DNA from: Chloroflexota bacterium
Lineage (GTDB): Bacteria > Chloroflexota > UBA11872
Assembly: GCA_026707585.1 (NCBI GenBank)
Contig: JAPOWQ010000049.1
Coordinates: 121,669-185,668 of the forward strand
Reading direction: 5' to 3'
Length of the DNA stretch: 64,000 nt
The position numbers were made by a program, and so were the translations under genes. Below are positions 58,992 to 64,000 of this stretch, piece after piece. Every line of letters starts with the position of its first letter. The first letter of the stretch is position 1. The notes beneath the pieces are model-generated. The model saw nothing but the letters and a program-made list of their open reading frames with translations, ran no database searches and was not told the origin of the DNA.

Positions 58992-60197
58992 ATGTCGAAG
59001 ACGATTGCCGTGATCGGCGCGCTGGATACGAAGGGCGGCGAGTTCGACTTCGTGCGCCGCGAGATCGAGCGACGGGGTCATCGGGCGCTGGTGATCGACA
59101 GCGGCGTGATCAGCGAGCCGGGCTTCGAGCCGGACATCCCGGCCGGCGAGGTCGCGGAGGCCGGTGGAACCGGCCTGGACGAGCTGCGGGCGCAGGGCGA
59201 CCGCGGGACGGCTATCGGCGTGATGGCGGCCGGTGGCGCGGCGATCGTGGGCCGGCTGCATGCCGAGGGCCGGATCGACGGGGTGCTGGGCATGGGTGGC
59301 AGCGCGGGCACGGCGGTGGGCACGGCGGCCATGCGGGCTCTTCCCGTGGGTGTGCCCAAGGTGATGGTGAGCACGGTGGCCTCGGGCGATACGAGCGGCT
59401 ACGTGGACACCAAGGACGTGGTGATGGTGCCCTCGATCGTGGACGTGGCGGGGGTGAATCGAATCAGCGCGCGCATCTACGCCAACGCGGTGGGCGCGGT
59501 GGTGGGGATGGTGGAGACGGCCGCGCCCGAGATCGAGGACAAGCCGCTGATCGCGGCCTCGATGTTCGGCAACACCACGCCGGCGGTGGAGCGCGCCCGT
59601 GAGCGGCTGGACGCGCTGGGCTACGAGGTGCTGGTGTTTCACGCCACGGGCACGGGCGGACGCACGATGGAAGACGTGGTGGCCGGCGGGTTCGCGAGCG
59701 GCGTGCTGGACGTGACGACGACCGAGTGGGCCGACGAACTGGTGGGCGGCGTGATGGGGGCCGGGCCGGGCCGGCTGGACGCCGCGGCGGCGCAGGGGGT
59801 CCCGCAGGTGATCGCGCCGGGCTGCCTGGACATGGTGAACTTCTGGGGGCCGGAGACGATTCCGGACAAGTTCGAGGGCCGCCGGTTCCACTACTGGAAT
59901 CCCAACGTGAGCCTGATGCGCACGGACCCCGAAGAGAACGCGGAACTGGGCCGGATCCTGGCGGAGAAGGCCAATGCCGCGACGGCACCCACGGCGATCT
60001 TCCTGCCGTTGAAGGGCCTGTCGCTGCTGGGCGCGCCGGGCGAAGAGTTCCACTGGCCGGAGGCCGACCAGGCGTTGTTCGACGCCATCAAGCAACACGT
60101 GCGCGACGACATTCCCGTGTACGAGCTGGACCACGCCGTCAACGACGAGGCCTTTGCCGACGCCGTGACGGACAAGTTGCTGGAGTACCTGGGCTGA
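58992..60197 (+). CDS. UPF0261 / Tm-1-like ATP-binding domain protein
   Basis: 401 residues. IAVIGALDTKGGEFDFV at the start, then GVMAAGGAAIVGRLHAEG, GVLGMGGSAGTAVGTAAM and MFGNTTPAVERARERL define UPF0261, the N-terminal half of the tomato Tm-1 resistance protein. The Tm-1 C-terminal TIM barrel is encoded by the next gene, so the pair is a split Tm-1. The bacterial role is unproven, and the context suggests carbon catabolism. GGAGGAG lies before the ATG. Confidence 0.92.
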   Translation: MSKTIAVIGALDTKGGEFDFVRREIERRGHRALVIDSGVISEPGFEPDIPAGEVAEAGGTGLDELRAQGDRGTAIGVMAAGGAAIVGRLHAEGRIDGVLGMGGSAGTAVGTAAMRALPVGVPKVMVSTVASGDTSGYVDTKDVVMVPSIVDVAGVNRISARIYANAVGAVVGMVETAAPEIEDKPLIAASMFGNTTPAVERARERLDALGYEVLVFHATGTGGRTMEDVVAGGFASGVLDVTTTEWADELVGGVMGAGPGRLDAAAAQGVPQVIAPGCLDMVNFWGPETIPDKFEGRRFHYWNPNVSLMRTDPEENAELGRILAEKANAATAPTAIFLPLKGLSLLGAPGEEFHWPEADQALFDAIKQHVRDDIPVYELDHAVNDEAFADAVTDKLLEYLG

Positions 60198-60257
60198 CGA
60201 TGCGACGACACGCCGTTCTGCTGAGCAACTCCTCAATCGAACGAAAGGACCACGCGC

Positions 60258-61088
60258 ATGCCGTACATCCCACGCGCTGAGGCGTTGCGGCGCCTGCGGG
60301 CCACGCTGGAGGCCGGTGAGCCGATCATCGGGTGCGGCGCCGGCACCGGCATCACGGCCAAGTTTGCGGAGCAGGGCGGCGCGGACCTCATCATCATTTA
60401 CAACTCGGGGCGTTTCCGGATGGCGGGCCGCGGGTCGCTTTCGGGGATGATGCCGTTTGGCGACGCCAACGCCATCGTGGTGGACATGGCGTCGGAAGTG
60501 CTGCCGGTGGTGCAGGACACGCCGGTGCTGGCGGGGGTCTGCGGGACCGACCCGTTCCGCCTGGTGCCCACGTTTCTGAAGCAGCTCAAGGCCATGGGCT
60601 TCGACGGCGTGCAGAATTTCCCGACGGTGGGGCTGATCGACGGCATCTTCCGCCAGGGCCTGGAAGAAACCAACATGGGCTTTGGCCTGGAGGTGGACCT
60701 GATCCGCCAGGCCAATGAGCTGGACATGCTGACCTGTCCGTACGTGTTCGACCCCGACCAGGCGGTCGCCATGAGCCGGGCGGGCGCGGACGTGCTGGTG
60801 CCGCACATGGGGCTGACCACCAAGGGCTCGATCGGCGCCACGACGGCGCTGACGCTGGACGACGCGGTGGCGAGCGTGCAGGCCATTCACGACGCCGCCG
60901 TGGCCGAGAAACCGGACGCGGTGGTGCTGTGCCATGGCGGGCCGATCGCGGATCCCGGCGACGTGCGCCACGTCCTGGCGAACACCGAAGGCGTGGCCGG
61001 GTTCTTTGGGGCCTCGAGCATCGAACGGCTGCCGACCGAAGTCGGCATCCGGGAGCAGGTGGAGGCGCTGAAGGCGGCGAAGGGCTAG
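60258..61088 (+). CDS. Phosphoenolpyruvate-hydrolase-like TIM-barrel protein
   Basis: 276 residues. [64 protein letters not shown] and [13 protein letters not shown] are characteristic of the PEP hydrolase-like family (IGPS-like barrel), which matches the C-terminal domain of Tm-1. It is preceded by AAAGGA at good spacing and separated by 60 nt from the UPF0261 gene. The two probably act together. The reaction is not established. Confidence 0.9.
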
Positions 61089-61808: not shown

Positions 61809-62789
61809 ATGCGCGCGCTCGTGACCGTGCTGGAGGAGGACGGACGCCGCGGCAAGCGGCTGGTCCACGACTGGCCCGAGTACACCGACCCGCTCCGGGC
61901 CAACGAGATCAAGGCCCGCAACATCTACAGCGGCGTCACCAACGGCACCGAGCGCAACAACATGCTGGGCGGCAACTACTCCCGCCCGGACCACGAGTTG
62001 CCCTCGAACGAGGGCTACCAGAGCGTCGGCGAGGTGATCGCCCTCGGTCCCGAGGTCGAGGACCTGAGCCTCGGCGACCTGGTGTTCATCGGCGCCCACA
62101 GTGGAACGCAGCGGAGCCCCGCCGGTCACGTGGAGTTCGTGACTATTGCCGAGGACGACCTGGTTCTCAAGCTCCCGCTGGACATCGACCCGATGCATGC
62201 CGCGTTGTTCGGCATGGGCGGGGTGGCGATGCGCAGTTGCCGCAACGCCGAACTGCGCATGGGCGAGCGGCTGCTGATTGTGGGCGGGGCCGGCTGCATC
62301 GGGCAGATGGCGGCGCAGATTGCCTCGGTCATGGGCGCGCGCGTCACCATCGGCGACGTTGCCGGCCGACGGCTGGAGCTGGCCCGCTCGATTGGCGCCG
62401 CCGAGTCGGCGGTGGACGTCTCCGGCGACGGCTGGGATCGGTGTATCGGCGAAGGCGCCTACGACGCCGTCATCGACTTCGCGGGCGTCCCGGGCATGGA
62501 GGACAAGCTGATCACGTGCGTCCGCCTGCAGGGACGCGTCATCCTGGTCGCGGGTCGCTGGGAGGTGAACTACACCTTCAGGACTGGCCAGGCCCAGGAG
62601 ATCACCATCAAGCAGAACAGCCACTTCGACCGGGACGACCTGCGAAACCTGTGCCGCCTCGTGGGCGGGGGCCTGGTCAAGATTGCACCGCTCATCCAGG
62701 ACGTGGTCCCTGCAGGCGAAGCGCCCCGCATCTACGCCACGCTGCGCGATGACTCGTCGCAGCTTATGGGCACGGTGTTCCAGTGGTGA
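61809..62789 (+). CDS. Medium-chain dehydrogenase/reductase without catalytic zinc ligands
   Basis: 326 residues. GroES-like N-terminus with SGVTNGTERNNM and NEGYQSVGEVIALG, then a Rossmann domain with LLIVGGAGCIGQMAAQIA. The usual zinc ligands (Cys near residue 40 and the GHE histidine) are absent, as in the BchC-like branch that carries S(G)xSxGTE in this place. It is probably an NAD(P)H oxidoreductase acting on a sugar or acid from the same cluster. GAGGAGGG lies before the ATG. Confidence 0.85.
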   Translation: MRALVTVLEEDGRRGKRLVHDWPEYTDPLRANEIKARNIYSGVTNGTERNNMLGGNYSRPDHELPSNEGYQSVGEVIALGPEVEDLSLGDLVFIGAHSGTQRSPAGHVEFVTIAEDDLVLKLPLDIDPMHAALFGMGGVAMRSCRNAELRMGERLLIVGGAGCIGQMAAQIASVMGARVTIGDVAGRRLELARSIGAAESAVDVSGDGWDRCIGEGAYDAVIDFAGVPGMEDKLITCVRLQGRVILVAGRWEVNYTFRTGQAQEITIKQNSHFDRDDLRNLCRLVGGGLVKIAPLIQDVVPAGEAPRIYATLRDDSSQLMGTVFQW

Positions 62790-62857: not shown

Positions 62858-62886
62858 TTGCCGACTCTCGACGCAGACGTTCTAAT
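62858..62886 (+). promoter_or_regulatory. Promoter of mini-gene 1
   Basis: -35 TTGCCG (62858-62863), 17-nt spacer and -10 TCTAAT (62881-62886). The layout repeats at the two following mini-genes. The predicted 5' leader is about 26 nt with GGGAG before the ATG. Confidence 0.7.
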
Positions 62887-62918
62887 GGTCACGGCCCGAG
62901 CTAACGGGAGTCGGCGCG

Positions 62919-63107
62919 ATGGACAAAACGGCCCAGCGGCTTCTCAGCCGACGACGATTCGGCGGAGCACTGCTCGGCGCACTCGCGGTCATGGCGGTGG
63001 GCCTTGGACCGGCCTGCGGCGACGACTCAGGTCGTGCCGCGGGCACTCGCGACGACCCGTTCCCCTACAAGGACCCCAAGGCCCGCTGCGGCAACGTGCG
63101 CTGCTGA
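62919..63107 (+). CDS. Tat-exported mini-protein, copy 1
   Basis: 62 residues. SRRRF at 10-14 matches the twin-arginine consensus, a hydrophobic stretch (GALLGALAVMAVGLG) follows, and Cys33 in GPACGDD could be a lipidation site. The mature part is about 29 residues and holds GTRDDPFPYKDPKARCGN, with Cys57 and Cys62 four residues apart. The two later copies keep the same plan. No known family is recognised. It might be a structural lipopeptide, a secreted effector or a substrate for modification; none of these is shown by the sequence. Confidence 0.8.
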   Translation: MDKTAQRLLSRRRFGGALLGALAVMAVGLGPACGDDSGRAAGTRDDPFPYKDPKARCGNVRC

Positions 63108-63156
63108 TCCCAACCCCAACGGGCTGCTGAAGGTCGGCTGCGTGACGCCGCCCGGT

Positions 63157-63185
63157 TTGCCACAACCAAGCGCACGCGCTGTAAT
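63157..63185 (+). promoter_or_regulatory. Promoter of mini-gene 2
   Basis: -35 TTGCCA (63157-63162), 17-nt spacer and -10 TGTAAT (63180-63185). AGGAG lies 8 nt before ATG 63218. Same geometry as copies 1 and 3. Confidence 0.75.
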
Positions 63186-63217
63186 GGTTACGGTCCGAAG
63201 AATCAGGAGTCGGCGCA

Positions 63218-63409
63218 ATGGACACACGGTCCCGGCAGCCGCTCACCCGTCGACGCGTTGCTGGAATGCTGCTCGGTGCGCTGGCGATCACCGCCGTCGG
63301 CCTTGGCGCGGCCTGCGGGGACGACGGTTCGACCGCGGGAACCCGCGACGATCCCTTCCCCGTCAAGGACCCAAGGTCCCGCTGCGGCAACCTGGGAACT
63401 AGCTGCTAA
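63218..63409 (+). CDS. Tat-exported mini-protein, copy 2
   Basis: 63 residues. TRRRVAG at the signal, hydrophobic core GMLLGALAITAVGLG and Cys33 in GAACGDD. The mature part has TAGTRDDPFPVKDPRSRCGN followed by LGTSC, so the final Cys is one residue further from the first than in copies 1 and 3. Substitutions relative to copy 1 are mostly conservative outside the DDPFPxKDPxxxCGN core, suggesting selection on the mature peptide. Confidence 0.8.
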   Translation: MDTRSRQPLTRRRVAGMLLGALAITAVGLGAACGDDGSTAGTRDDPFPVKDPRSRCGNLGTSC

Positions 63410-63424
63410 TGCGATTCCCGTCGC

Positions 63425-63463
63425 TGCAAGGACCTTGAGACCCAGGGCCGGAACGTCTGCTGC
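63425..63463 (+). pseudogene. Possible decayed fragment of a further mini-gene copy
   Basis: In the spacer after copy 2 the frame starting at 63425 reads CKDLETQGRNVCC, which resembles the KDPKARCGNVRC tail of copy 1. No start or signal peptide is seen in this frame. The likeness is short and may be chance. Confidence 0.2.
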
Positions 63464-63516
63464 CGATTCGGGCGCCGCCGAATCACCCTGCGTTGGCGGC
63501 CTCCCGGCGCCCCGTT

Positions 63517-63545
63517 TTGCCAGGACCGTCCGCTCTCGCTGTAAT
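63517..63545 (+). promoter_or_regulatory. Promoter of mini-gene 3
   Basis: -35 TTGCCA (63517-63522), 17-nt spacer and -10 TGTAAT (63540-63545). The leader AATCAGGAGACGGCGCA before the ATG is almost the same as in copy 2. Confidence 0.75.
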
Positions 63546-63576
63546 GGTTAAGGTCGAAGAATCAGGAGACGGCGCA

Positions 63577-63765
63577 ATGGCCAGGAAATCTCGGCGGACG
63601 CTCACCCGACGACGACTTGGCGGAGCCCTGCTCGGCGTGTTCGCGGTCATGGCTGTCGGTCTTGGCCCGGCCTGCGGCGGCGACTCCGGGGGTACCGCGG
63701 GCACTCGTGACGACCCCTTCCCCTACAAGGACCCCAAGGCCCACTGCGGCAACGACGGCTGTTGA
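63577..63765 (+). CDS. Tat-exported mini-protein, copy 3
   Basis: 62 residues from ATG 63577, chosen by the AGGAG and by the conserved start of the other copies; the frame is open upstream to 63493. Signal TRRRLGG, core GALLGVFAVMAVGLG, Cys33 in GPACGGD. The mature part has GTRDDPFPYKDPKAHCGN and ends DGC. Only 132 bp separates its stop from the dioxygenase-like gene at the right edge. Confidence 0.8.
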   Translation: MARKSRRTLTRRRLGGALLGVFAVMAVGLGPACGGDSGGTAGTRDDPFPYKDPKAHCGNDGC

Positions 63766-63897: not shown

Positions 63898-64000
63898 ATG
63901 AGCGCATCGAACGGGCTTGAATCACATGTGGACGACCTGCGGACACGCGGCTGGTGCGTGATCCCGGACATCATCTCGGAACCCGCCCTCAGCGACGTTC
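63898..64000 (+). CDS. Phytanoyl-CoA dioxygenase-like protein, N-terminal part (runs off the right edge)
   Basis: 34 codons from ATG 63898. LESHVDDLRTRGWCVIPDII followed by SEPALSDV is the standard opening of PhyH-family Fe(II)/2-oxoglutarate oxygenases. GGCGGAGACGACG precedes the start. The metal-binding HxD...H lies beyond the window. A link to the mini-proteins is possible by position only. Confidence 0.7.
   Translation, partial: MSASNGLESHVDDLRTRGWCVIPDIISEPALSDV

Follow-up and report, generated by a model that had tools for sequence, protein, structure and literature searches.

Three tiny genes stand in tandem near the end of the 64,000-nucleotide stretch of Chloroflexota DNA analyzed here (the window), and we refer to their positions as slots S1, S2 and S3 (Table 1). 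The sequence-only reading had described three tandem open reading frames (ORFs) of 62-63 residues, and we recover them where it placed them, with an RRR motif, a cysteine at residue 33, a shared core and a tail holding two Cys. At the protein level, S2 and S3 are 67% and 74% identical to S1. All three proteins carry RRR at residues 11-13, followed by a Gly/Ala-rich hydrophobic stretch and an Ala-Cys pair near residues 32-33 (Cys33). A short Gly/Asp-rich spacer adjoins this Cys in the array proteins, next comes G[TS]RDDPFP[YV], then the tail; GTRDDPFP, KDP, CGN and the final Cys are common to the mature parts of S1-S3. The last two Cys are spaced C-x4-C, or C-x6-C in S2. The upstream region was also said to be repeated, and a 155-nt direct repeat, present in three copies of which the second and third are 74% and 67% identical to the first, does take in upstream DNA. 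Since the ORFs have a strong coding signal and array genes occur in 12 of the 13 genomes of the genus, they are not chance frames. The AlphaFold model consists of the signal helix alone, with no fold in the mature part (mean pLDDT 59.5). Against solved structures there were two matches, both confined to signal-like stretches (E values of 1.1 and 2.8). The window yielded no Rfam match at gathering scores and no tRNA.

Table 1. Features of the array and its flanks; positions are those of the 64,000-nucleotide window
Feature	Position	Strand	Description	Occurrence or remark
Zinc-dependent alcohol dehydrogenase-like gene	61809..62789	+	Assigned by Pfam	Constant upstream neighbor; given no role in the proposed mechanism
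Promoter-like element of S1	62858..62887	+	TTGCCG, 17 nt, TCTAAT, then G	
S1 mini-gene	62919..63107	+	62 aa, tail ...YKDPKARCGNVRC	Orthologues in 12/13 genus genomes
Promoter-like element of S2	63157..63186	+	TTGCCA, 17 nt, TGTAAT, then G	
S2 mini-gene	63218..63409	+	63 aa, tail ...VKDPRSRCGNLGTSC	8/13 genus genomes
Promoter-like element of S3	63517..63546	+	TTGCCA, 17 nt, TGTAAT, then G	
S3 mini-gene	63577..63765	+	62 aa, tail ...YKDPKAHCGNDGC	8/13 genus genomes
Start of downstream gene	63898..64000	+	Cut at contig end	PhyH-type dioxygenase by synteny

The window and its contig (C39 of genome G000, 185,668 bases) share their end, so the downstream gene is cut. In 11 of the 12 array loci, the gene immediately before the array is that of the alcohol dehydrogenase. 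Leaving aside genome G002, which has a single S1-like gene in a different setting from the other array loci, a PhyH-type gene follows the array in all nine other loci whose contig is long enough (PhyH by Pfam in L098). Further upstream in the window, genes of the UPF0261 and PEP_hydrolase families, both scoring well above their cut-offs, adjoin each other (58992-61088). Downstream of the array in relatives (L098 13859-19998, reverse strand), we observed a large LRR/PD40 protein and an adjoining protein with repeated CWG motifs, which look like big surface proteins. The LRR/PD40 gene was rejected as a constant downstream neighbor, since its counterpart in G002 is a looser relative whose N-terminus differs.

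Each gene has its own promoter-like element, of the pattern TTGCCn-N17-T[GC]TAATG in the window, and 62858, where the sequence-only reading began its feature, is the first base of the S1 element. A looser cross-species form (TTGC[CG]n-N17-T[GC]TA[AG]TG) stands before 26 of the 28 array genes found in the genus, being absent at S2 of G001 and at the G002 gene; it lies 31-33 nt 5' of the start in 24 of 25 array genes and has no match in 883,589 bases fetched outside the arrays. The strict form (TTGCC-N18-TSTAATG) gave 20 matches in 9 of the 13 genus genomes, every one at an array gene, against 3 for a reversed control pattern. The earlier claim that each gene has its own promoter stands insofar as a conserved promoter-like element precedes each, but a canonical sigma-70 scan of the array called no promoter, and no terminator. 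The scan misses the element because its second hexamer (TCTAAT or TGTAAT) has no A at position 2. We call it promoter-like because it is conserved between species; its survival across species suggests use, and it may have spread through duplication. Before 29 other short lipobox ORFs, nearly all of them mini-genes too, the best score for the array element was 9 of 12 positions. Among the 13 genus genomes, this promoter-like element is, in its strict form, private to the array.

The 28 array genes are distributed over 12 genomes, always in the order S1-S2-S3 when a genome has two or more. Occupancy among the 13 genus genomes is 12 for S1, 8 for S2 and 8 for S3, with subsets that vary by species. 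The tails read CGNV[RST]C in S1, CGNLGTSC in S2 and HCGNDGC in S3 (CGNDGR in G008). A tree built from 25 of these genes (S2 of G001 and S1 of G005 and G010 are missing because our start finder required a Shine-Dalgarno-like motif) recovers S2 (support 100/97) and S3 (98/95) as clades; S1 does not form one. As S2 and S3 are cross-species clades, at least these two split before the species did. Judged by tree and tails, the slots are separate orthologous lineages with differing tails and not three copies of one gene. The suggestion that three copies serve a higher output of one product fares poorly on this evidence, also because single species lack S2 or S3. Two side observations concern individual slots. 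By our reading, the region upstream of S2 in G005 and G010 (L102, L103) resembles that of S3 in G004 and G006 (L104, L091), which hints at recombination between slots; and S3 of G008 (L097 10504-10752) ends in Arg, making it the only array gene of the 28 without the final Cys pair.

Between related species, the final ~20 residues of S1-S3 are nearly fixed and the first part drifts. Within slots, Nei-Gojobori dN/dS for core plus tail was 0.127 in S1 (36 pairs), 0.000 in S2 (21 pairs) and 0.044 in S3 (28 pairs), compared with 0.235, 0.421 and 0.296 for the respective signals; the G002 gene and the three genes missing from the tree are left out of these counts, and the pairs are not independent. 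These ratios place the tails under stronger purifying selection than the signals, in the same direction in all three slots. In S2, the protein sequence of core and tail is identical in seven species that have seven differing nucleotide versions, and in all eight genomes overall. The sequence-only reading had named a lack of purifying selection on the mature part as grounds for refuting it; the codon substitutions instead point to such selection.

The twin-arginine-like signal that it had pointed out is borne out as a sequence feature, and the Cys stands in a lipobox-like setting. Over 20 types of such mini-proteins (minis), R11 and R12 are each present at 90% or more; some types (D, introduced below, and its neighbor) have no clear twin-arginine motif. 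All 51 relatives that were aligned have the Ala-Cys pair. The residue at position -3 of the Cys is Gly in S1-S3; in lipoboxes this residue is usually Leu. From what is established about Tat export and the processing of lipoproteins, an RRR signal with a lipobox-like Cys predicts a lipid-anchored peptide. TatC is encoded in all 13 genus genomes and a signal peptidase II family protein in 12, the exception being G003, which is 76% complete. Tat export is described as compatible with lipoproteins (PMC10924467).

No Pfam model reached its cut-off for 17 minis and no NCBIfam model for 8, in keeping with the earlier remark that the family is not a recognized one, and we found no description of it in open-licence papers. 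The profile search for homologues that had been proposed did find relatives in Chloroflexota metagenome-assembled genomes (MAGs). A profile of the three array proteins gave matches to 53 predicted proteins at E<=1, all of them lacking a precomputed Pfam domain; both of those named by organism come from Chloroflexi/Chloroflexota MAGs, one with a second name beginning Rhodos, and ten loci of relatives named by record are all from Chloroflexi or Chloroflexota MAGs. The genus is likely sponge-associated, because isolate prefixes such as RHO resemble the sponge samples of an earlier study (PMC8163846).

A DNA pattern for the core matched 12 of the 13 genus genomes (the miss is again G003) and none of 28 other genomes of the class. 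Among 400 genomes of the phylum, it matched 12 genus genomes and four others, with one match each, where the frames are very short or have no lipobox; every core match in the genus genomes (G000-G012) whose frame was read is a mini. The idea that the core is the start of a longer domain, prompted by motifs of the form G-x-R-x-N-P-x-P, was rejected: within the class, the pattern matches only in this genus. Protein profiles reach further. One (A3) matched 9 non-genus genomes of 101 at E<=0.001, and another, built from 20 mini types (A4), gave matches at E<=1e-4 in at least 38 of the 41 genomes of the class. When 8 of the 28 non-genus class genomes were checked hit by hit, nearly all matches were to the signals of longer frames; of four non-genus frames of 123-145 aa, three (L172, L175, L183) are longer or contig-cut lipoproteins and one (L177) is an unassigned short frame. 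Two single-mini queries matched 11 and 13 of the 41 class genomes, all in this genus. No convincing member of the family was seen outside the genus among the genomes inspected. These searches give good support for a DDPFP core restricted to the genus, and the repertoire as a whole is likely confined to it as well.

That repertoire is considerably larger than the array. The genome from which the window comes (G000) has at least 19 predicted mini-lipoprotein genes, of which the array is one branch: at least 16 short-frame minis from the 20-type profile, two more from gene lists and one from a control scan (L201). Unlinked relatives have the core in common and differ at their ends (type C, ...YQDPRSRNTRL; type D, ...YEKSRSGFGWG; type E, ...DNPFPYSEERTxRLRTRM), and the tails of these three types have no Cys. 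When 430 kb were scanned for short lipobox ORFs, all 36 candidates were read as falling in mini loci; they include genes of other sequence beside D and E and a tandem trio in G002. One further G000 locus holds at least six minis. The same scan of 136.9 kb around known loci returned 17 candidates, one an artefact, compared with 4 in 440 kb of control stretches of the same genome (one a real mini by motif) and 2 in 144 kb of reversed DNA. Profiles of two other mini groups matched 154 and 68 proteins in searches that consider similar lengths only, so that the shortness of the matches is no evidence; among the matches listed (120 of the 154), none has a precomputed Pfam domain.

Throughout this wider set the plan of signal, Cys and short mature part is kept and the tails differ. 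An [FY]x[FYW] motif occurs in the mature part of 17 of 21 types, as against 3.9 (sd 1.7) in shuffles, a count in which the types are partly homologous and not independent. In 18 of 21 types, the charge over the seven residues that follow the Cys is zero or negative, and in 16 of 21 that of the last twelve residues is positive. Some individual members are worth recording. In a larger cluster in G000 (L136 4962-6394, 7286-7747, 9424-9654 and 9847-10188; contig C65), four tandem predicted mini-lipoproteins have a Y-x-F-P-G core in place of DDPFP; the three tandem minis of G002 (L087 1758-3095) carry an EFDYKISGDR motif and longer tails; and tail Cys pairs of other forms occur in a mini near position 487 of L201 (RCGRGC) and in one on the reverse strand of G003 (L145 9940-10167; REC...TVC).

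Several known small proteins invite comparison. LptM (YifL), a proteobacterial lipoprotein of the PF13627 type, resembles the array minis in its tiny size and in the short conserved segment that follows the lipid-bearing Cys; it acts by binding a larger envelope complex, the LptDE translocon (PMC10567701). However, lptM-like genes are virtually absent outside Proteobacteria according to the same study (PMC10567701), none of 17 minis matched PF13627 at E<=1, and the minis, whose signals are twin-arginine-like, have diversified into a repertoire within a single Chloroflexota genus; our best reading is that they are probably like LptM in manner and not members of its family. The entericidin-type Atu8019 is likewise very small and lies at the surface; it is linked to contact between vesicles and cells, so that small lipoproteins can act in surface contact (PMC7296081). 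It differs in host group and sequence, and no entericidin-family Pfam model matched the 17 minis at E<=1. TIGR02811 (formate_TAT) describes a very small precursor of twin-arginine type found beside formate dehydrogenase, but a relative of the array proteins (P0036) scored 12.5 bits over its signal only, against a cut-off of 48.45, no match is listed for the three proteins of the window, and no formate dehydrogenase matched among the array neighbors scanned with Pfam. NF058595 (invert_tail), a putative C-terminal anchoring domain of lipo-invert proteins, is weakly similar to the minis along the stretch of RRR, hydrophobic residues and Cys, with 15.6-19.8 bits where the cut-off is 37, whereas in the minis this stretch is the N-terminus of a stand-alone protein.

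We propose that the array encodes three diverged tiny proteins, likely exported by Tat and likely lipid-anchored at Cys33, each of whose tails would dock to a different partner, protein or polymer, in the cell envelope; we put the probability of this reading at about one half. Each gene has a start codon and a promoter-like element to itself and belongs to a lineage distinct from those of the other two. The RRR motif and mild hydrophobic stretch would direct the precursor to Tat, after which lipidation and cleavage at the Cys by signal peptidase II would leave a ~30-residue peptide on the membrane's outer face. Its tail, nearly invariant in any one slot but different from slot to slot, would be the part that docks, with the two last Cys possibly closing a small disulfide loop as the docking face. 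Such a loop would not be general, because the last Cys is gone from S3 of G008 and the tails of types C, D and E contain no Cys. After duplication, a changed tail would supply each copy with a new partner and would not raise the output of one product. In favor of docking are the greater constraint on tails than on signals, the S2 and S3 clades and the species-variable occupancy, as well as the invariant Ala-Cys, the presence of TatC and signal peptidase II, a repertoire that pairs the same plan with other tails, and the private element. For diverging paralogues with fixed tails, partner-specific docking appears to fit better than dosage.

Docking is weakened by the Gly at -3, the lack of a clear twin-arginine motif in type D and its neighbor, the structure model without a fold beyond the signal helix, and the failure to find a partner among the neighbors of mini loci. 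Outside the array, these loci have differing neighbors and unrelated genes. When neighbor families in 7 mini-containing stretches were compared with those in 22 control stretches, there was no clear enrichment: one small family reached p=0.043, uncorrected, and the two largest candidates p=0.23 and 0.09. A common neighbor as the partner was rejected, the enrichment being unconvincing.

Less probable is a structural role in which abundant lipopeptides, in the manner of Lpp, coat the membrane and hold the wall, the S-layer or each other by mass action, with no specific partner. Separate promoter-like elements, many genes, small size and two extra Cys able to cross-link would suit it; yet every slot retains a tail of its own, S2 or S3 is dispensed with in several species, and other types have no tail Cys. 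We consider it unlikely that the tail is cut off or modified and acts as a diffusible peptide, as in a peptide signal or a RiPP-like precursor. The short, nearly fixed C-terminal sequences with two Cys and the paralogous variants are what one would expect, and conserved tails would fit a peptide signal equally well as docking. However, a modified-peptide precursor, one of the options raised by the sequence-only reading, finds no support in the array neighbors scanned: they include no dedicated transporter or modifying enzyme, with no known RiPP enzyme among 10 array-side proteins (Pfam) or 5 neighbors (NCBIfam), and one neighbor of 226 aa (c5) has no Pfam or NCBIfam match at all. Neighbors differ at the other mini loci, and the lipobox-like Cys is invariant in the relatives. 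A pheromone derived from the signal peptide is disfavored, as the signal changes faster than the tail.

Conserved C-terminal ends beside metabolic genes could also mark regulatory or stalling leader peptides that control a neighboring gene, which we regard as very improbable given up to three in a row with a promoter-like element each, an S1-like gene of G002 set elsewhere, other types beside unrelated genes and a window devoid of Rfam matches at gathering scores. That the minis are functionless, decayed remnants of longer lipoproteins, whose signals in other genera they resemble, is scarcely credible in view of purifying selection that is strongest in the tail, orthology over 12 species and a core pattern that, among 41 class genomes, matches this genus only, in frames that, where read, are minis.

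Beyond docking by the array proteins, a broader and rather speculative picture, which we hold doubtful, is that of a surface address code private to the genus: at least 19 anchored peptides, each with a spacer, an aromatic core and an exchangeable tail, would be read by a receptor specific to each tail, possibly in contact with a host animal. The three slots of the array would be switched as one unit, through a promoter that the genus has at no other site.

Family models easily overlook tiny lipoproteins, yet the few that have been studied steer envelope assembly or surface contact. Taken together, our analysis points to one uncultured Chloroflexota genus with a predicted mini-lipoprotein repertoire that matches no Pfam model (17 minis scanned) and has near-fixed tails. 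The tail peptides, the promoter-like element and the natural losses of slots between sister species would offer direct handles on an envelope biology that is otherwise obscure.
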